Of a stretch of DNA of 28,120 nt, positions 9,544-20,728 are shown piece after piece. The stretch lies in the IMG/VR virus record IMGVR_UViG_3300031957_001887, positions 1-28,120 of that record; one strand, given 5' to 3'. The notes below the pieces were generated by a model. The model saw only the letters and a program-made list of their open reading frames with translations. It did not search any database and was not told where the DNA came from. Both the position numbers and the translations under genes were made by a program. This DNA is from a virus. The first letter of the stretch is position 1, and each line of letters begins with the position of its first letter.

Positions 9544-10848
9544 CTAAAATACTGGTTGTATTACCTCAACTGAATTATCTTTTGCTGCAGTCTCACTTGT
9601 GTATCCGGCTATTTCTCTCAGAAAACCATTTGAAACATCAAGCTTATCTTGTACGGTTTCTCTTTCTTGTGCTTGTTCACCTGCGGCAATTCTTTGTAGT
9701 TCTCTAACTGATATACCGATTGCATCTGCGACTGCTTGTCTTTGAACAACATTTAAGGCCTGTAAATCACCTAAACCACCAATGACACTTTGTATTTCTG
9801 CTGTAAATCCAGCGATATCACCTTCTAATGATAATTGTCTTGCTTTTTCAAGATTTAATTGTTTACCAGTCAAGACTTGTGCTTTAAACTGATTAGTTAA
9901 TGATGTTTCAAATTGCAATACTGAGTCAGCTGCTTTCAATATGGTTTCTAAACTACCACCTATTTTTGCTGCTTCAATAGCTGCTTCTGCTAATCCTTTT
10001 GCTCCGTCCATTGAGAATTTAGCAAATGTTTCTGCATTTGAAGCCATATCACTCAATACTTTACCCGTAGCTACATTTGCTGATTTCGCCATATTGACTG
10101 CTGTTTGCGCTATATTGGTTGCGACATCAAAGGACGAACCTGTTAAGTCCATCATTACTTTATTGAATTGAACTATTTCTTTACCACTTACTCCTGTGTT
10201 TTGTGCTAAACGAGAAACATTAGCTGCGTTTTTTGCAGTAACATTTTCTAATGAACCAAATTCATTTACGATTTCTCCCAATGTGGTTTTAATTTTTGTA
10301 GCGTCTAATCCGATAACTTTAAATTTGGTTTCTTGAAATTTTAGTGGAATCAAAAGGTCTCGGGCTTGTTTAGTCGATACATTTAAGTCTTGACCTAAAT
10401 CTCTTGCTGCCATTCTGACTTTTCGTATAATTGCGAATAAAGCCACTACTGAAGCTATTAAAGCAGTTATTGGATTTCTGGTGACTAAATTTCTCAATAC
10501 TTGTGAAAAACTTTTTGCTCCGTCTGCACTTTGAATAAGTTTATCATAAACCATTTGTTGTAAACCACCTGTTTCTTTAATCTTTTCTTTAAGTTGTTTT
10601 TCTAATACATCGCCAACAATCGGTATTTTTTTCGTAAAACTGACAAACTGCTTTTCTAAATCTTCTGACTTTTTAAGAATTTCTTCAGTAACATCACCTG
10701 ATTCATTGAGAAGTTCGACTCTTTGTATCAGGTTATTAACAATGTCCATTCCTGTATCTTCACCCTGTTTTTCAAGTTTTCGAGCTCTTTCAAGAGCTTT
10801 TTCCTCTGCTCTTCTTGCTGCCTGTTGTCTTCTGCTTTCTTCAGCCAT
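9544..10848 (-). CDS. Tape-measure-like protein (gp29 position), 434 aa
   Basis: Likely the tail-length ruler. It begins with a charged coiled-coil (residues 1-70, Arg/Glu/Lys-rich), followed by a hydrophobic helix at about 126-144 (NPITALIASVVALFAII). A long alanine-rich helical region with weak repeats such as TNIAQTAVNMAKSANVATGK and GLAEAAIEAAKIGG comes next. These are hallmarks of tape-measure proteins, which insert into the membrane at ejection. At about 1.5 angstrom per residue, 434 residues would set a tail near 65 nm, shorter than T4, whose gp29 has 590 residues. The chaperone-type genes (gp26/gp51-like) lie just upstream, as is usual for tape-measure genes. Confidence in the class is moderate because the family has little sequence signature. 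Confidence 0.75.
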   Translation of the reverse strand: MAEESRRQQAARRAEEKALERARKLEKQGEDTGMDIVNNLIQRVELLNESGDVTEEILKKSEDLEKQFVSFTKKIPIVGDVLEKQLKEKIKETGGLQQMVYDKLIQSADGAKSFSQVLRNLVTRNPITALIASVVALFAIIRKVRMAARDLGQDLNVSTKQARDLLIPLKFQETKFKVIGLDATKIKTTLGEIVNEFGSLENVTAKNAANVSRLAQNTGVSGKEIVQFNKVMMDLTGSSFDVATNIAQTAVNMAKSANVATGKVLSDMASNAETFAKFSMDGAKGLAEAAIEAAKIGGSLETILKAADSVLQFETSLTNQFKAQVLTGKQLNLEKARQLSLEGDIAGFTAEIQSVIGGLGDLQALNVVQRQAVADAIGISVRELQRIAAGEQAQERETVQDKLDVSNGFLREIAGYTSETAAKDNSVEVIQPVF

Positions 10849-11184: not shown

Positions 11185-11472
11185 TTAAGATTTTTGTATA
11201 TCTGGTCTTTGTATTTGATTAGGTTTTTTATTGACTTCTTTGATTTGTCTTGACTCTTCTTTTTTTGCTTCTACGAGTTTTTGAGCATAAAATCTTCTCA
11301 AAGGAACTGGCATATTGTAGAGTTCGTTGTGATTAAACCCATTTCCATAATAGGCGATGTTGAAGAGTTCTTCGTGAATGGCCGCCCTATTACTCGGCGG
11401 CTGGCCAAAAAAATCCAATCCCGAGTGGGATATCAATTTTATGTAGATTCCCTGTTTGACTCGTGTAATCAA
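11185..11472 (-). CDS. 51: gp51-like baseplate assembly frame, probably made by frameshift
   Basis: Its C-terminal part (HEELFNIAYYGNGFNHNEL, then MPVPLRRFYAQKLVEAKK) matches the short T4 gp51-type proteins that help assemble the baseplate hub. The frame overlaps the end of the gp26-like gene by 83 bases. Upstream of the T7 run at 11407-11413 it has no ATG: the only start is a TTG at 11470-11472, just after an in-frame stop at 11476-11478, with a poor ribosome binding site. A +1 (or -2) shift at the T7 run would join 251 residues of the gp26 frame to 73 residues of this frame (about 324 in total). I therefore read it as a translational extension. Independent TTG initiation remains possible. 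Confidence 0.75.
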   Translation of the reverse strand: MITRVKQGIYIKLISHSGLDFFGQPPSNRAAIHEELFNIAYYGNGFNHNELYNMPVPLRRFYAQKLVEAKKEESRQIKEVNKKPNQIQRPDIQKS

Positions 11473-12160
11473 ACTTCAACTCAATGTCTGGTGTAATCAT
11501 TTCTTGGTATATTCTAAATGCACGAGTGTCTAATGCCAAGAATTCATTATCAACAAAATTATCAATTGTTTTTTGGTCAGTTTTTCCATTAACTGATTGA
11601 ATTTGATGTTTTAATCTTGTTGTTAAGTTGTATGAAATACCTGTAAGTTTTTCAGCTTTTTCATAATCTTTAAGAGTTTTTTCTATTTGTTTTTCATCTT
11701 TTTGTGTTAGTAGTTTGAAATTTATTTCTACTTTTGAATTAGGTAATGTAAAGTCAAAAGTGTTTCCTGCTAAATAAAGGTCTTCATCTATTTCTTTATT
11801 ATCCAACTTTGCTAAATCCACTACACACTCAACTTTTTCATTTGTGTCGGGGTCGGTAATTATAACTTGATAATCTTTTCCGTATCCTAAAATACGAGTT
11901 CCAATCATAAGTGCATTTTTATCCCCTAACAACATATCATCTAATTTAACTTTTGGGTCTGCTATTACTGATTCTAACAATTTAGTAATCACTACACCTT
12001 GTTCTATTAGATTTGTTGAAGTTAATATATCTTCTTCTTTTGCTGTCATATATTTGACATCTATGGTTCCACTACGCAAAGGACTATCTTCGGGATACAA
12101 TAATCCCTTTGAAGGTAAAGATAGAACTTCAGTAGGAAATCCGTACTGATTTTCAGCCAT
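11390..12160 (-). CDS. 26: gp26-like baseplate hub assembly protein, 256 aa
   Basis: Related to the T4 baseplate protein gp26 family (208 residues in T4). The N-terminus has the hallmark LSLPSKGLLYPE followed by KYMTAKEEDILTS, then a helical core and a Lys/Glu-rich stretch near residues 155-190. It ends GIGFFWPAAE; the FFWP ending is coded TTT TTT TGG, which is itself a slippery run. In the T4 family, gp26 acts with gp51 in hub assembly; by analogy with chaperone pairs in other phages, the two may serve the tape-measure protein. It is downstream of the membrane protein and tube genes. Its last 83 bases are shared with the gp51-like frame. Confidence 0.8.
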   Translation of the reverse strand: MAENQYGFPTEVLSLPSKGLLYPEDSPLRSGTIDVKYMTAKEEDILTSTNLIEQGVVITKLLESVIADPKVKLDDMLLGDKNALMIGTRILGYGKDYQVIITDPDTNEKVECVVDLAKLDNKEIDEDLYLAGNTFDFTLPNSKVEINFKLLTQKDEKQIEKTLKDYEKAEKLTGISYNLTTRLKHQIQSVNGKTDQKTIDNFVDNEFLALDTRAFRIYQEMITPDIELKFDYTSQTGNLHKIDIPLGIGFFWPAAE

Positions 12161-12198
12161 TCTGTTTTACTCCTTGATTAATTAAGAATTAATAACTA

Positions 12199-12428: not shown

Positions 12429-12914
12429 TTAGAATTCAAGTATTGCGTAATCATACTGCATTGTTAAACCAATTTCAACAACATCATTAGATGCGAAATC
12501 TAAATCATTGAAGTTTGCTGCTGTTAAAAATGCGCCTTTAATTATCCATTGTTCAATCTTTTCCCCATTAGGACTTAATAGATTGAAAGTGATATCTTTT
12601 TTATATTCTGATGAGTATCCGTCAACACCTGTTACTGATTCGTGGTGTAGTCTAATCCACTCATTGACTGCTTGTGCTCCACTTGGAACGATTGGGTCAT
12701 ATAAAGTTACTTCAATTGGTTGCCAAGATGCTTTACCTTTTACATATCTTTTTGTATTAATATGGTCCAAAGTAACTGTATCGAAGGCGATTGATGGCCT
12801 TGCCATTGTTTTAACGAGATACGCTGGTATTCCGTCTATTTCCATAATAAACCTATTTTTTAATTTAGGTTCAAAAGGTGTAAAAAATATTTCATTTGGG
12901 TCTGCAAAAGCCAC
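12429..12914 (-). CDS. 19: Tail tube protein gp19
   Basis: Forms the inner tube through which DNA passes. Its length (161 residues) equals that of T4 gp19 (163). Characteristic features are NRFIMEIDGIPAYLVKTMARP near the N-terminus and a second strand pair (YVKGKASWQPIEVTLYDPI). The middle contains VNEWIRLHH, and the end reads LTMQYDYAILEF, typical of the tube family's beta-barrel fold. It starts with AGGAGAATT in front of ATG and has an ATATTTAT motif 35-42 bases upstream. In T4, gp18 and gp19 are adjacent; here a plus-strand cassette separates them. Confidence 0.95.
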   Translation of the reverse strand: MAFADPNEIFFTPFEPKLKNRFIMEIDGIPAYLVKTMARPSIAFDTVTLDHINTKRYVKGKASWQPIEVTLYDPIVPSGAQAVNEWIRLHHESVTGVDGYSSEYKKDITFNLLSPNGEKIEQWIIKGAFLTAANFNDLDFASNDVVEIGLTMQYDYAILEF

Positions 12915-13192: not shown

Positions 13193-13224
13193 ATAGTGTT
13201 ATGATAATGATAAAGGAAAACGAA

Positions 13225-13632
13225 ATGACTGAAAATACAACAATTGAAACAAGGAATTATGAAGATGCTTTGGTAACGAGAGAAATTCCAAACACTTATG
13301 GGTATTATAATGAAGCTGGTGAGTATGTAGAAAATGGAACTCATACCATTACTCATTATAGATATAATCATAATCCTATGGAATTATATGAAGCTAATCA
13401 AAATCAACCAGCTGTTAGGTTGGAAGATTATGAAGCTCCTTATTTTGAACAAGCTTTATACAAGGGTATTCCTATGGAATTTAGGTATAACCCAACTATC
13501 AGAAATATGATGATGACTGGTAATTTTAGAATTAAGTATCGTGGTGGTAGCAAACCACAATATGGCTTTGTGAGAAGTCAATACAATACATTGGCTGAAT
13601 ATGCTGATACCTTTGCTATTTATCCTAAATAG
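13225..13632 (+). CDS. Unknown protein of the plus-strand cassette, 135 aa
   Basis: I do not recognise it. The ATG at 13225 is chosen over those at 13201 and 13207 because AAAGGA (13212-13217) is correctly spaced in front of it; the earlier ATGs would sit almost at the predicted mRNA start. The protein is soluble and tyrosine-, asparagine- and glutamate-rich, with no membrane helix or signal peptide. It contains NTYGYYNEAGEYVENGT, a central DYEAPYFEQALYKG segment, and a C-terminal YRGGSKPQYGFVRSQY. It stands alone against the tail genes and is transcribed from an early-type promoter, so it is a moron-like accessory gene. Its TAG stop runs into a structured region and a bidirectional terminator. 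Confidence 0.8.
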   Translation: MTENTTIETRNYEDALVTREIPNTYGYYNEAGEYVENGTHTITHYRYNHNPMELYEANQNQPAVRLEDYEAPYFEQALYKGIPMEFRYNPTIRNMMMTGNFRIKYRGGSKPQYGFVRSQYNTLAEYADTFAIYPK

Positions 13633-13836: not shown

Positions 13837-16293
13837 TTATTCAGGGAATGCTGCGCCTGTTGGTTGAACTACAAAGTCCAATACAATAAATTCAGCTGTT
13901 CTTGTTGGTTGAATAAATATCTGACCAACTAATTGATTTCTATCAACAACATCTGGTGTGTTGTTAGAATCGTCCATAACTACTCTGAAAGCAGTTAGAC
14001 CTGAATTTGCTTGAACTTCTTCAAGAAATGGATTCACTATGTTTAGGAATCTGTTTCTTAAAGCTGTTGTGTTTTGTTCAAATACCAAGAATCTTGAAGA
14101 TGATGCGATGAACTTTCTTAAGTTAATCAACAATCTTCTTACATTGATTCTGTCTAATGCACTTGGTTTTCCTTGAAGTGTCTTCTGTCCAAACACTACT
14201 ACGCCTTGACCTGGGAAAGTTGCGATTGGATTAATACGATTTTCGTATAAATCATCTCTTTCCAAGTTGGTTAGTCTTGTTTGTGCTTCTAATACTTCTG
14301 TTAAACCACCACGATTTAGACCTGCTGGTGCGAACCACTCTTGTCCAATTCTATCATTGTTTGAATAAACACCTGGTAGAACTACTGAAGGTGGAACCCA
14401 AGTAGGTTTGTTTTTGTTCTCATCAAGAATCTTAACCCAAGGATAATATGTAGCTACATAATTACTATCTAATGTTTTTACATCATCAATAGCTCCTTGT
14501 ATTGTTCTTCCGTATTGTGAACCATCTAAGATAAAGAAACAATCTGCTCTATCTTCGACTTTATCGATTGCGTGATTAGTTACACTTGAATGTAATTGAT
14601 GAATAACACCTGGTATAGCTAATAAGTTGATATCATATTCATCAGGATTAGATACTGCGTTAATAGCTCTTTTGTATGCTACCGAACCACTTGCACTTGC
14701 ACTTGATAAATCAAATCCTTGTGTGTTGGTTGATACAATATCTGTTCCTTTTTTATTCTCTATCGCTGGATTTGTTCCGTCAAAACCACCTTGGAAAGGA
14801 ACTTGGAATTTCAATTGTCTAAAATCTGAAGTTCCTAATCCTAATAATGATGAACCATCTGAGTATGTTGTTCCCAATACTGATGCGTCGTCATTACCGA
14901 ATGCATTTTCTAAACTCATAGTAACATTGTTACCTGCTGCTGCACTTGTTGGTAATGGTGCTAAATATTGTTGACTATCAATACTATTGAAGTCAAAGCC
15001 ATAATATACATTTTGGTCATATGTTCCACGACCATTCAGTTGTGCTATCGAACCTGATGTTCCAAGATATGAAGCACTTGGATATGCTGCTGCGACCGTA
15101 CTACCACTTGGTATAGATGTTGATACATCTATAACACTTGTTTGTAGTGGTGCGTCAAATCCCATAGGAACTAATTCCTCTGGTATAGCTTCCAAATCTT
15201 TCAAAGATGAAATTTCTGTTGTTGCACTTGTGATTGTTTTACCTGATATTCTAATGTAAGATGATTGGTTTGGATAATCACCATTTGTGGTTAATTTACC
15301 ATTTGAATCAATCGTAATAAATCTATCTCCAATTCTTCTTACTACATAGTTATCAGAATCAGAGTCAAGGTTTAGATTAGAAAAGTTTTCTAAAACAATT
15401 CCATCATCATTTTGTCCTGGATTATTTACAATCACTTGTAAATCAAATGAACCATAATCACTACCGGCCACATCAACTGCTCTTTTAACATTTGATATAC
15501 CAATACGATATTTAGTATTTTGATTAGTTCCGTGTGCTAATGTAGCAACTCTGAACAATGAAGTTCTTGCTCCATTTACTAATTGTGATTGTAGTGCTGG
15601 TGTGTGTGCAACTTTGAAGTCAAATGAAAAGTTTTCATCTGAACCACTTTGTATCGTTACAACGTCAGCTACACTTTGGTCTACACCAGTTCCTAAATAC
15701 TCATTTTGTGTATTTTGGAAATTAGAGTAAACATACAATTTTTGGTTTGTATCTTGTGGATTTTCACTAAATACTTTTGTAATGTAGTTTGCTGAACTTG
15801 AATCAAAAGATAAGTTAAAAGTGCTTTCTCTTGTTCCGTCATTAGTAGTGTCTAATTCTAAAGTAAAATCACTTGCAGATACTTTTGTTTGCAATATTGA
15901 AGCACTTAATGGTCCTGCTAACTCTAATGCGTTAGGGTCTGATGCGCCTCTTGAAGGTTTTAGAACTGCTGCTACTTTGTGTCCTTGTGAACTACTGATA
16001 CTCAATACGACACTATCGTTTGCGTATCCTCCTAAATGTAAAACTCTCACGATTGTTACGGTTCCTGCACTTTTTAAATATTGTTTTGCAGTAAAAGGAA
16101 CATAAAAATCTTGATTTTCTTTTCCGAAAATTTTCTCAAACTCACCTAAATTTCTAATTGCGGTTGGAACAAATGCTGGTCCCATATCTGTTGGTCCAAC
16201 TAATGCTGCTCCAATTTCGCCTATTCCTTCAGGTAAGAAAGATAAATCTTTTTCTCTGGTGAAAACACCAGGGCTTACTATTCGTTCGGCCAT
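13837..16293 (-). CDS. 18: Tail sheath protein gp18
   Basis: The contractile sheath subunit. The N-terminus MAERIVSPGVFTREKDLS and the start of the first domain (IGEIGAALVGPTDMGPAFVP) are classic sheath features. The C-terminal region has NVRRLLINLRKFIASSSRFLVFE, and the end IFIQPTRTAEFIVLDFVVQP is the conserved inner domain that links neighbouring subunits. At 818 residues it is longer than T4 gp18 (659). The extra length lies in the central part, which is Ser/Thr/Asn/Gly-rich and beta in character, and would be the outward-facing protrusion. It starts with TAGGAGAAAGAAA in front of ATG and shares the bidirectional terminator with the converging cassette. Confidence 0.95.
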   Translation of the reverse strand: MAERIVSPGVFTREKDLSFLPEGIGEIGAALVGPTDMGPAFVPTAIRNLGEFEKIFGKENQDFYVPFTAKQYLKSAGTVTIVRVLHLGGYANDSVVLSISSSQGHKVAAVLKPSRGASDPNALELAGPLSASILQTKVSASDFTLELDTTNDGTRESTFNLSFDSSSANYITKVFSENPQDTNQKLYVYSNFQNTQNEYLGTGVDQSVADVVTIQSGSDENFSFDFKVAHTPALQSQLVNGARTSLFRVATLAHGTNQNTKYRIGISNVKRAVDVAGSDYGSFDLQVIVNNPGQNDDGIVLENFSNLNLDSDSDNYVVRRIGDRFITIDSNGKLTTNGDYPNQSSYIRISGKTITSATTEISSLKDLEAIPEELVPMGFDAPLQTSVIDVSTSIPSGSTVAAAYPSASYLGTSGSIAQLNGRGTYDQNVYYGFDFNSIDSQQYLAPLPTSAAAGNNVTMSLENAFGNDDASVLGTTYSDGSSLLGLGTSDFRQLKFQVPFQGGFDGTNPAIENKKGTDIVSTNTQGFDLSSASASGSVAYKRAINAVSNPDEYDINLLAIPGVIHQLHSSVTNHAIDKVEDRADCFFILDGSQYGRTIQGAIDDVKTLDSNYVATYYPWVKILDENKNKPTWVPPSVVLPGVYSNNDRIGQEWFAPAGLNRGGLTEVLEAQTRLTNLERDDLYENRINPIATFPGQGVVVFGQKTLQGKPSALDRINVRRLLINLRKFIASSSRFLVFEQNTTALRNRFLNIVNPFLEEVQANSGLTAFRVVMDDSNNTPDVVDRNQLVGQIFIQPTRTAEFIVLDFVVQPTGAAFPE

Positions 16294-16696: not shown

Positions 16697-16996
16697 CTAT
16701 TTGTTCAAACAATCACATTTTTGTTTGATGTCTTCTACTTCTTTCTTTAATTCTTTGATTGATTCTATCAATAATGGAACTATCTTTTCATACTTAACAC
16801 CTAAGTATCCATTAGCACGAGTTGCTACAATTTCTGGTAAAACTGATTGTATTTCTTGTGCTACGACACCAATGTCTTTTCCTTTATAAACATTTTGCTT
16901 GTCGTTCCATACAAATGTATAACCACCAATCTTTTCCATTTTATCTAATGGATTTTCAATTGGTTGAATATTATCTTTTAATTCTCTATCAGATGA
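16697..16996 (-). other. S74 peptidase domain with Ser-Lys dyad
   Basis: Residues 1245-1343 of the fibre. The S-D-R-E-L-K start gives the S1246/K1251 pair expected of intramolecular chaperones from phage fibres and endosialidases. The predicted cut is before S1246 (codon at 16991-16993), releasing a 98-residue piece with a C-terminal coiled coil that ends in a Cys-x-Cys. Confidence 0.9.
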
Positions 16997-19900
16997 ACCA
17001 AATGCTATAATATCACCACTTGTTTCAAGACCTGATGCTGTCATTAGTCCTGTTGCATTTATATAATCAAATGAACCAGATGTAATATTTGCTTGTTTTA
17101 TACCTGTGATTGTTCCTAAACTACCACTTAAATGACCTGCGTGATTTAATTTTATTGATGCGTGTGAAGATGTTGCTGCGAAGTTTGTTGGAACTGCAGC
17201 TTCCAATGTCTTTGTACTACCATCTAATGTTAGGTATGCAGTTACTCCACCACTTCCGTCATCACATTTTAATATTAAATCTGCATCAGCAGTATCTTGT
17301 CTTATAGTTAGATTTCCAGTTCCATCTGCTTTTATAATACTATTAGAACCATCGTGTTTAATTTCTAAATCTTCATCAGCACCAAAATATGCATTTACAC
17401 TATCGGCAAATCTCATATTTTTGTTTATAATAATTTTTGTTGCACTTCCATCTAATGTTAGGTAAGCTGTATTACCACCACTACCGTCATCTGACTTAAG
17501 TATAATATCTTTATCGTCTGCTTGATTAGAAATAATTAAATCACCCGTTAATCTATTGGCTATATAAGAATCATTTCCATCGTGTTTTAATTGTAAGTCA
17601 TTACCAGAACCTATTTGAAGCTTTCCATTATCAATTAATCTAATATCATTGGCTACGTGTAAATTGTCCGTTACATTTACATTTAAGAAAGAACCACTTT
17701 GACTACCACTAATATCACCACTTGCACTAATTGCTGCAAATAAAACATTGGCAGTTGTTGCTACGTCTTGTCCAATCGCTATGTCATTTGCGTTAGCTGT
17801 TACACCAGTTCCTCCGACAACATTTAAAGTTCTGTTTGCAGCTATTGTACCACCACCTGTTAAACCAGTTCCTGCTACAACACTTACTGAACTATGGTCA
17901 ATATGCTCGTTTGCTACAAAGTTTGTTGTGGAATCGTGGTCAACCATTGCGGATGCTGATATAACACCTGCTCCCAATCCAACGATTGCTGCTGCGGATA
18001 ATGAACCACTAACATCAGCAGCTATTTGTGCCGAACCAGATAATATACCTGCTCCCTCACCGACTATTGCTGTTGTTAAACTACTGTTGGAACTTGAACC
18101 AGATATGATTCCTGCTCCTAATCCTACAACTGCTGTTGTTGAGAAAGAACCACTAATATCGTCTGCTAATTGTGCCGAACTTGATATTACACTATCACCG
18201 GTTGTTCTTAAAACCGTGGCGTCTACTGCAAAACTTCTGTTTGAAGCTATCGTTCCACCACCTGATAGTCCGTCTCCTGCTGTTAATGTTATTGTTGTGT
18301 GGTCAATGTGTTCATTGGCAACGAAGTTTGCTAATGAGTCGTGGTCTATTGTTCCTTGCGTTGCAGTTCCGACTAATCCTGTTAAGTTTGTTGCTTGAAC
18401 TGATGATGCGGAAACAACATTTGCGTCTAATTGTTGGAAAGAACCTGATTTATATCCTAAGATATTTCCTAAACTACCACTTATGTTTCCACTACCACTA
18501 ATATGTTGGACATCAAATATATCATTTCCGTCCATATCTAAATCTTGTGTTGCTGTATGATTACCCATATCATCACCACCTGCTATCGCACTTGCGATAG
18601 AAGCTGATACATCTGTAATGTTAGGTAATGTAAATTTACCTGTAACTCCTAAGTTATCTGTAATGTCTACATTTAAGAAAGAACCACTTGCACTCGCACT
18701 AACACTACCGACTACTTCGAGTGCCTCTGCTGGCGTGGTTGTGTTTACACCTAAGTTTTCACTAAACGAACCAGAAACACCTGTAAATGTTGTTCCTGTA
18801 ATCGTGGTTCCGTCAATCGCACTAAATCCTTTTATAGTTCCTAAACTACTACTGAAGTGTCCATTGTTTTGTAAAAATATACTTGCCAATGAAGCCGTCA
18901 TTGTATTTGTTATGTCTATTGTACTACCACTTATAGATAAAGAACCTGTAAATTGGTGTGTGTCATCTGCTGGTGTATCACCAGATACGGTTGAACCACT
19001 TCGTATTGACGAAGTCATATGTGTTACTGATGAACTTACTATATAATTTTGTGCTATAACATCACCTTGTGCGGTAATATTTCCTGTTGTGGTTACGGAT
19101 GCGAATTCTACATCTGAATCTGTTGCAACTGCCTGTCCAATCGCTACATCATTGGCATTTACCGTAACACCTGTTCCGGCTCCAACTGCTAATGTTCTTG
19201 TAGATGCGATTGTTCCACCACCTGTTAGACCTGCTCCTGCGGTGATTGTTACTCCACTATGGTCTATGTGTTCGTTTGCTACGAAATTTGCTAAACTATC
19301 GTGGTCTATTGTTCCTTGCGTTGCAGTTAAAATTGTTCCGTGAATGTTTGTCGACTTGATATGTGGGGCGTCAATGTTTAAAAATGAACCACTTGTGCTG
19401 GCACTTATCGCACCTACCACTTCGAGTGATTCTGCTGGCGTGGTTGTTCCAACACCTAAATTTATGTTAAATGAACCCGAGTCAAATCCTAAAAGACTAC
19501 CTCTACTACTACTGATATTTCCACTCGCACTAATATGATTGAATTGAACATTTGCTGTTGTGGCAACATCTTGTCCAATAGCGATGTCGTTTGCATTTGC
19601 AGTAACACCTGTTCCACCAATGACATTTAAAGTTCTATTTGCTGCTATTGTTCCACCGCCGGTCATACCTGTTCCAGCAATTACACTTACTGAACTATGG
19701 TCTATGTGTTCATTTGCCACGAAGTTTGTAGTTGCGTCGTGGTCGATTTGTGCGGAACCCGATATAACTGAACTCGATACCACATTTTCTGTTGTTGTAA
19801 GTCTTGTTGAAATACTTGCACTTGGTGCCGCAAATGAACCACTAATGTCTGTGGACAATTGTGCGGATGCCGATACTATGTTTGCTCCCTCACTAACGAT

Positions 19901-20728
19901 TGCTGTTGTTAAACTACTATTAGAACTTGAACCAGATATGATTCCTGCTCCTAATCCTGCAACTGCTGCTACGGACAAAGAACCACTTATGTCATCAGAG
20001 ATTTGAGCTGAACTTGATAATATAGTATTACCTAACTCCGACTCTGCGGTTGTAATTCTTGTTGAAAAACTTGCACTTGGTGCTCCAAACGACCCACTAA
20101 TATCGGTTGACAATTGTGCTGATGATGAAATTGCTCCACTATTCGTTCTTAATACGGTAGCATCAACTGCAAAACTTCTATTCGTTGTAATATCACCACC
20201 ACCTGATAAACCATCACCAGCTGTTAAAGTTACACCACTATGGTCTATATGTTCGTTTGCGACAAAGTTTGTAGTAGAATCGTGGTCAACTTGTGCTGAA
20301 CCACTAAATAAAGTATTTCCTAATTCTGTTTCTGCGGTCGTTACTCTTGTAGAAAAACTGGCACTCGGTGCCACAAATGACCCACTTATGTCTGTGGATA
20401 ATTGTGCCGAACTTGATATAATTGAACTCGATACCACATTTTCTGCAGTTGTTACTCTTGTAGAAAAACTAGCACTTGGTGCAACGAATGAACCACTAAT
20501 GTCGGTTGCGATTTGAGCCGAACCTGATATTAATGTATTACTTAATTCTGACTCTGCGGTTGTAACTCTTGTAGAAAAACTACCACTATCGGTTGTTATT
20601 CTTGTTGAGAAACTACCACTATCTGCGACAAATGAACCACTAATGTCAGTAGCTATTTGTGCTGAACTTGATACTACACTCGTCCCTGTTAAAGGGAATT
20701 TAATTTGTTTTGATTTTAAATCGGCCAT
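16697..20728 (-). CDS. Repetitive fibre protein with C-terminal S74 self-cleaving chaperone, 1343 aa
   Basis: A long virion fibre. The N-terminal 300 residues are repeats of a Ser/Ala-rich unit (SSAQIATDISGSFVAPSASF). The middle alternates further modules, including five copies of NFVANEHIDHS...GGGTI...R and three of NDIAIGQDVATTANV-type sequence. Two copies of a later module contain ...LKHDGNDSYI... and SDDGSGG...AYLTLDGS. The last 99 residues are the S74 peptidase/chaperone: SSDRELKDNI (S1246 and K1251 as the Ser-Lys dyad), then VWNDKQNVYKGKDIGVVAQE and a helical end. That domain drives trimer folding and then cuts itself off before S1246. The gene follows the gp15-fusion and 288-residue fibre genes and shares their modules, so the three probably build one appendage. 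Confidence 0.9.
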   Translation of the reverse strand: MADLKSKQIKFPLTGTSVVSSSAQIATDISGSFVADSGSFSTRITTDSGSFSTRVTTAESELSNTLISGSAQIATDISGSFVAPSASFSTRVTTAENVVSSSIISSSAQLSTDISGSFVAPSASFSTRVTTAETELGNTLFSGSAQVDHDSTTNFVANEHIDHSGVTLTAGDGLSGGGDITTNRSFAVDATVLRTNSGAISSSAQLSTDISGSFGAPSASFSTRITTAESELGNTILSSSAQISDDISGSLSVAAVAGLGAGIISGSSSNSSLTTAIVSEGANIVSASAQLSTDISGSFAAPSASISTRLTTTENVVSSSVISGSAQIDHDATTNFVANEHIDHSSVSVIAGTGMTGGGTIAANRTLNVIGGTGVTANANDIAIGQDVATTANVQFNHISASGNISSSRGSLLGFDSGSFNINLGVGTTTPAESLEVVGAISASTSGSFLNIDAPHIKSTNIHGTILTATQGTIDHDSLANFVANEHIDHSGVTITAGAGLTGGGTIASTRTLAVGAGTGVTVNANDVAIGQAVATDSDVEFASVTTTGNITAQGDVIAQNYIVSSSVTHMTSSIRSGSTVSGDTPADDTHQFTGSLSISGSTIDITNTMTASLASIFLQNNGHFSSSLGTIKGFSAIDGTTITGTTFTGVSGSFSENLGVNTTTPAEALEVVGSVSASASGSFLNVDITDNLGVTGKFTLPNITDVSASIASAIAGGDDMGNHTATQDLDMDGNDIFDVQHISGSGNISGSLGNILGYKSGSFQQLDANVVSASSVQATNLTGLVGTATQGTIDHDSLANFVANEHIDHTTITLTAGDGLSGGGTIASNRSFAVDATVLRTTGDSVISSSAQLADDISGSFSTTAVVGLGAGIISGSSSNSSLTTAIVGEGAGILSGSAQIAADVSGSLSAAAIVGLGAGVISASAMVDHDSTTNFVANEHIDHSSVSVVAGTGLTGGGTIAANRTLNVVGGTGVTANANDIAIGQDVATTANVLFAAISASGDISGSQSGSFLNVNVTDNLHVANDIRLIDNGKLQIGSGNDLQLKHDGNDSYIANRLTGDLIISNQADDKDIILKSDDGSGGNTAYLTLDGSATKIIINKNMRFADSVNAYFGADEDLEIKHDGSNSIIKADGTGNLTIRQDTADADLILKCDDGSGGVTAYLTLDGSTKTLEAAVPTNFAATSSHASIKLNHAGHLSGSLGTITGIKQANITSGSFDYINATGLMTASGLETSGDIIAFGSSDRELKDNIQPIENPLDKMEKIGGYTFVWNDKQNVYKGKDIGVVAQEIQSVLPEIVATRANGYLGVKYEKIVPLLIESIKELKKEVEDIKQKCDCLNK
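17210..20720 (-). repeat. Mosaic of imperfect direct repeats in the fibre gene
   Basis: Repeats are visible at DNA level. One example is a shared block of about 29 bases ending in TTGCGTTGCAGTT at both ~18338-18367 and ~19298-19327. Another is a block of about 60 bases around 18068-18125 and 19907-19965. The five EHIDH modules lie near 17740-17930, 18190-18340, 19090-19290, 19550-19740 and 20150-20290. The near-identity of some copies indicates recent duplication or gene conversion. Confidence 0.75.

Follow-up and report, generated by a model that had tools for sequence, protein, structure and literature searches.

In other phages, tail chaperones are made by −1, −2, or +1 shifts (PMC5009743). 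Short and long tail assembly chaperones of T4-like phages were identified in 2022 by Vladimirov, Gautam and Davidson (Virology; cited in PMC10885494), and papers that cite this work attribute to it the presence of separate short and long chaperone genes in some T4-like phages (PMC10885494) and of polyT −1 signals in T4-like chaperone genes (PMC12846349). From the title of that work, the texts citing it, and the alignments presented here, we infer that the genes in question are gp26 and gp51, and what concerns T4 and the cyanophages is accordingly treated below as already known. Both T4 proteins belong to the Pfam family PF12322, with gp26 stopping where gp51 continues into an extension, and the locus described here shares this family and this domain plan. 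Whereas T4 has two paralogous genes on opposite strands, the locus consists of what appears to be one gene read in two frames.

The window, i.e., the whole 28,120-nucleotide stretch of viral DNA that was analysed (IMG/VR record IMGVR_UViG_3300031957_001887), carries this locus on its minus strand (Table 1). The gp26-like frame ends with the residues GIGFFWPAAE, encoded by the codons GGA TTT TTT TGG CCA GCC GCC GAG TAA, in which the run of seven T residues (A7 on the plus strand) spans the codons TTT (11413–11411), TTT (11410–11408), and the beginning of TGG (11407–11405). A second frame, +1 (equal to −2) relative to the first, is open for just 23 codons upstream of the codon GGC at 11406 and continues to a stop at 11185. 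Before the run it contains no ATG, only TTG and rarer codons, and no Shine–Dalgarno-like sequence comparable to the AAGGAG of the gp26-like gene was seen ahead of it when the sequence was read. When the frames are joined at the run, a fusion of 324 residues results. An earlier examination of the window (the sequence-only reading) had reported the TTT TTT TGG coding of FF-W, the +1/−2 second frame lacking an ATG before the run, and the 324-residue fusion, all of which were borne out. It had also proposed that a programmed frameshift joins the gp26-like and gp51-like frames, and this is still the best explanation of the conserved run, the missing ATG, and the coding signature described below: one gene very probably makes a short and a long chaperone by a programmed +1 frameshift at the T7 run.

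Table 1. Features of the chaperone locus and its neighbours in the window
Feature	Position	Strand	Basis
gp26-like short tail assembly chaperone (TAC-N), frame-0 gene, 256 aa	11390..12160	-	PF12322, phrog_150, AlphaFold/BFVD
Shine–Dalgarno AAGGAG, 9 nt before the ATG of the gp26-like gene	12170..12175	-	read in sequence
Slippery run T7	11407..11413	-	invariant in 79/79 testable loci; codon statistics
Hairpin GCCGCC / loop GAGTAATAG / GGCGGC	11381..11401	-	covariation, fold, G+C content
+1-frame extension, 73 codons + stop, gp51-like C-terminal part of the long form	11185..11406	-	purifying selection, homology
Tape-measure-like gene, 434 aa, downstream	9544..10848	-	similarity to immuto and Mel-JY01 proteins
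Tail tube gene (gp19-like), upstream	12429..12914	-	PF06841, phrog_4542
Tail sheath gene, upstream of tube	13837..16293	-	phrog_23, E 5.5e-75

In terms of protein identity, the short form matched PF12322 (T4_baseplate) with E 1.3e-9 (38.5 bits against a curated cut-off of 24.5) and phrog_150 (baseplate hub) with E 7e-11. Its AlphaFold model (pLDDT 91) had many BFVD matches to T4-type gp26/gp51 hub assembly proteins. Of the PDB chains re-aligned with VIA-align, two entries alone are listed, namely YqbN (3klu; 85 residues, Z 5.5) and 2ob9, the tail assembly chaperone of HK97 (81 residues, Z 5.2); both matches fell on residues 1–95 and scored below Z 8, a range in which common arrangements also score. 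YqbN is presumably a prophage tail assembly chaperone. The model of a T4-type gp51 that was folded gave no convincing PDB match. The extension was connected to T4 gp51 stepwise with hhalign, each value coming from a single comparison: the +1 fusions aligned with the cyanophage gp26–gp51 fusion over 282 columns (E 5.7e-19) and their extension with the cyanophage extension alone (Prob 96, E 2e-9), whereas the cyanophage fusion aligned with T4 gp51 over 231 columns (E 7.7e-15) and its extension with that of T4 gp51 (Prob 97, E 5e-10). The direct similarity between the extensions of the window and T4 is weak, and homology with the T4 gp51 C-terminus is claimed via the cyanophage profile only. The locus very probably encodes a short/long tail assembly chaperone pair of the T4 gp26/gp51 family in a T4-type virus of bacteria.

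The order of the genes around the locus is sheath, tube, a 72-aa ORF, the chaperone pair, an 86-aa ORF, and tape measure, so that the chaperone locus (12160–11185) lies between the tube and tape-measure genes, as in G/GT-type systems. The tape-measure-like protein resembles the protein annotated as tape measure in Flavobacterium phage immuto (E 5e-12) as well as its counterpart in Microcystis phage Mel-JY01 (E 7e-19); its 434 aa compare with 1006 aa in immuto and >1160 aa in Mel-JY01, and the similarity spans an inner part of both proteins. Elsewhere in the region, a 143-aa ORF without a PHROG match (13201–13632) lies on the plus strand among the minus-strand structural genes, and a very long repetitive protein with SGSF/SSAQ repeats is encoded at 16697–20728, the C-terminus of which (RELKDNIQPIENPLDKMEKIGGYTFVW) resembles, by eye only, a self-cleaving tail-fibre chaperone domain of the peptidase S74 type.

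Runs of this kind are common in the window, which contains 12 runs of seven or more Ts and 9 of seven or more As at 34% G+C, so a T7 run alone proves nothing and its conservation is the remarkable part. A scan of IMG/VR yielded 80 relatives with 67–96% identity, of which 78, together with the window, formed a set of 79 testable loci (L022 and L024, which end before the site can be judged, were left out). The T run, whose retention in relatives had been proposed as a check, was kept in all 79, always as T7GG and in the same register. In 40 non-redundant loci, both Phe codons of the site were exclusively TTT, although TTC accounted for 17% of the other Phe codons of the gene; the naive probability of an all-TTT site is 3e-7, on the assumption of independence among what are related sequences. 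Past the frame-0 stop, the +1 frame stayed open for a median of 68 codons, compared with 29 for the other frame. The suggestion that FFWP is a conserved gp26 ending held for the nearer relatives only, since FFYP, FLWP, and FFRP occur further away. At the other end of the gp26-like gene, the first ~40 codons (12160–12040) had unusually conserved third positions in 38 non-redundant relatives, with major-allele frequencies of 0.8–1.0 compared with about 0.7–0.8 beyond, and 17 of the 22 fixed codons fell within this stretch, where an overlapping element or a translational constraint is possible.

With profile searches and phage records, the collection grew to about 200 loci, the most distant of which are about 25% identical; the automatic choice of the site was uncertain for a handful of these (e.g., L265, L277, and L085), and some contigs were fetched by two scans. 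The distant relatives keep the frame relation, but the site differs: TTT TTT TGG was found in 119 loci, TTT TTT TAC in 33, TTT or TTC followed by TTT CGT in 14, and TTT CTT TGG in 9, with few others, such as AAT CCC AGT. The last was invariant near the gp26-like end in six loci (L282, L285–L287, L291, and L292), suggesting that a CCC_A +1 site may replace UUU there. Five loci did not fit: two were cut short (L021 and L222), and three had the second frame in the −1 register (L295–L297). Two huge phages differed from each other, the 595-kb uncultured phage LR756511 (L088) having a T TTT TTC site with the extension in the −1 frame and LR756508 (L084) having it in the +1 frame. Some relatives (L298–L302) came from contigs binned as Woesearchaeota, Winogradskyella, Flavobacteriales, and Alphaproteobacteria MAGs; these are probably phage contigs, and the archaeal bin presumably reflects misbinning.

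This turnover of the site bears on the direction of the shift. At UUU_UGG, UUU_UAC, CUU_UGG, and UUU_CGU, the conserved sites of the family, the P-site tRNA could re-pair one base forward, on UUU or CUU, and bacterial +1 shifting is reported to be particularly frequent at UUU_Ynn (PMC5009743); the A-site codons are assumed to be slow in the host. A −2 shift, which would add one Phe to the product, is documented for phage Mu (PMC5009743), and U7 alone would allow UUU to re-pair in either way, two bases back or one base forward. However, relatives with UUC_UUU_CGU, UUU_CUU_UGG, or CCC_AGU at the same position would re-pair at +1 and not at −2, which points to +1 for the family as a whole and makes a −2 shift improbable. 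The sequence-only reading had treated +1 and −2 as equivalent; its +1 half stands, whereas its −2 half fails at the variant sites UUU_CGU and CUU_UGG. The same variants speak against slippage of RNA polymerase on the T7 run, by which part of the mRNA would have only six Us and would code for the fusion without any shift by the ribosome. Such slippage could occur at seven identical bases, which the window's clade always keeps, but relatives keep the frame relation without any homopolymer (TTTCTTTGG and TTCTTTCGT) and the hairpin described below sits where it would act on ribosomes, so that we regard polymerase slippage as slightly less probable still.

We give just as little credence to the idea that the extension is a separate small gene, initiated at an upstream TTG or ATG of its own or by translational coupling at the gp26-like stop. 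TTG codons are present in the window, an ATG occurs at codon −9 of the second frame in some relatives (e.g., L003), which counts against a frameshift, and a small gp51 is annotated separately in S-PM2, P-SSM2, phiN3, and others. Nevertheless, relatives often miss the ATG, as the window does: from the opening of the frame to codon 25 of the extension, 49 of the 79 loci have no ATG before the conserved peptide and 33 have no ATG, GTG, or TTG, and in many loci the second frame opens only 3–5 codons before GGC. Between the frame-0 stop and the first ATG of the extension lie its codons 7–30, whose variation at the first, second, and third positions is 0.05, 0.03, and 0.22, respectively, a clear coding signature of purifying selection. 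Because these codons evolve as protein before the first ATG, the peptide appears to be translated from upstream of any ordinary start. The second frame overlaps the 3′ end of the gp26-like gene, lacks a start of its own, and would be joined to it at a conserved, shift-prone site. A sequencing or assembly error that splits what is really one frame has a negligible chance of being the cause, since, error-prone as homopolymers generally are, the same T7 recurs in 79 loci, the frame-0 ending and stop are conserved, and the shift site of some relatives is not a homopolymer.

In the window's clade and its near neighbours (L190, L194, and L195), TGG is followed at a distance of 3 nt by a G+C-rich hairpin of 6–7 bp whose loop contains the frame-0 stop, as in the window, or lies close to it. 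The 27 bases after the T7 run are 72% G+C, compared with 32% in the gene. The arms of the hairpin co-vary (GCCGCC/GGCGGC, GCCGGT/ACCGGC, GCCGGC/GCCGGC, and TGCGGGC/GCCCGCG); 93.8% of the cells in the alignment were paired, and four pairs and 13 cells were changed on both sides. The covariation score was 0.324, compared with 0.097 in shuffled alignments, none of 500 shuffles reached either 13 cells or this score, and slid versions of the hairpin alignment scored much worse. Part of the hairpin is coding in both frames, which is also a sequence constraint, but coding does not predict matched changes. Most of the more distant loci had no such hairpin within 46 bases, and an element found only in the window's clade and a handful of its neighbours is not a general requirement. 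Where present, the hairpin is a probable frameshift stimulator. A Shine–Dalgarno-like stimulator upstream of the run was also looked for: GGG precedes many sites, but its spacing is unlike that of prfB and it is absent at other sites, and no such element is claimed.

Under the +1 frameshift that we favour, most ribosomes would terminate at the gp26-like stop and release the 256-aa short form. A minority would pause at UUU_UGG, with UUU in the P site and UGG in the A site, where the hairpin that starts 3 nt further on would hold them; the peptidyl-tRNA-Phe would slip one base forward on U7, from UUU to UUU, and reading would resume at GGC (11406), yielding the 324-aa long form with its 73-aa gp51-like extension. 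On the model of lambda G/GT, the part shared by both forms may coat the tape measure protein and the extension may recruit tail tube subunits. We infer the slippage, its direction and efficiency, and what each form does during tail assembly from features observed in the sequences: the frames, the conserved site, the selection on the extension, the hairpin, the homology, and the gene order.

In the open-licence literature, no account was found of a +1 version in a T4-type pair, of the turnover of its sites, or of the hairpin, which is weak evidence of novelty; as far as we have found, these three are new here. On balance, we lean towards the view that a large group of mostly uncultured T4-type phages makes the long chaperone by a hitherto undescribed +1 shift in which the A site holds a sense codon rather than a stop and which, in one clade, a hairpin 3 nt downstream stimulates, and that across lineages this orthologous pair is made by +1 frameshifting, −1 frameshifting, or duplication. 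That the short and long forms of one protein pair should be reached by three routes suggests that selection keeps the two forms, or their ratio, and offers a series of natural cases in which to study how one route turns into another. The loci also supply many natural sites, lacking a stop codon, that are candidates for +1 shifting in bacteria, and in one clade the site is followed by a covarying hairpin. For annotation, a joined CDS is the appropriate form for the small gp51-like gene of these genomes.

Among the known systems, influenza A PA-X shifts at UCC_UUU_CGU (PMC5009743), with the same UUU in the P site and the same forward re-pairing as proposed here, and the distant relatives use UUU_CGU itself. 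PA-X is an unrelated gene in an unrelated host and has no evident stimulator, whereas the window's clade has the hairpin, and the analogy is one of shift sites only. Lambda G/GT uses a −1 shift at a different site (PMC5009743), and the likeness is drawn without any claim of sequence similarity; the comparison with G/GT made in the sequence-only reading holds in that the position between tube and tape measure, the startless second frame, and the conserved shift site are all present. The T4-type pair had been described there as normally two separate genes, which is true of T4 but not of the cyanophages and KVP40-type phages, which look like −1 frameshifters. All 80 cyanophage loci examined (seed S-PM2) had the −1 heptamer T_TTT_TTC one codon before the gp26 stop and the small gp51 in the −1 frame, with no ATG near its beginning in 35. 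The same heptamer was found in Pseudomonas phage Astolliot, Stenotrophomonas phage Moby, the KVP40-type Vibrio phage VH1, Vibrio phage EniLVp02, Aeromonas phage avDM12, and Cronobacter phage S13, and Sinorhizobium phage phiN3 had T_TTT_TTT. The two Ackermannviridae checked (L311 and L312) differ, with the gp51-like ORF after the gp26-like stop and no clean slippery heptamer, and may use coupled re-initiation; L311 has an overlapping TAATG at the gp26-like stop. The cyanophage gp26–gp51 loci (S-PM2, P-SSM2, and syn9) and the KVP40-type pair have the same proteins, the same position, and the same overlapping second frame as the window, but appear to shift by −1 at a tandem heptamer where the window would shift by +1.
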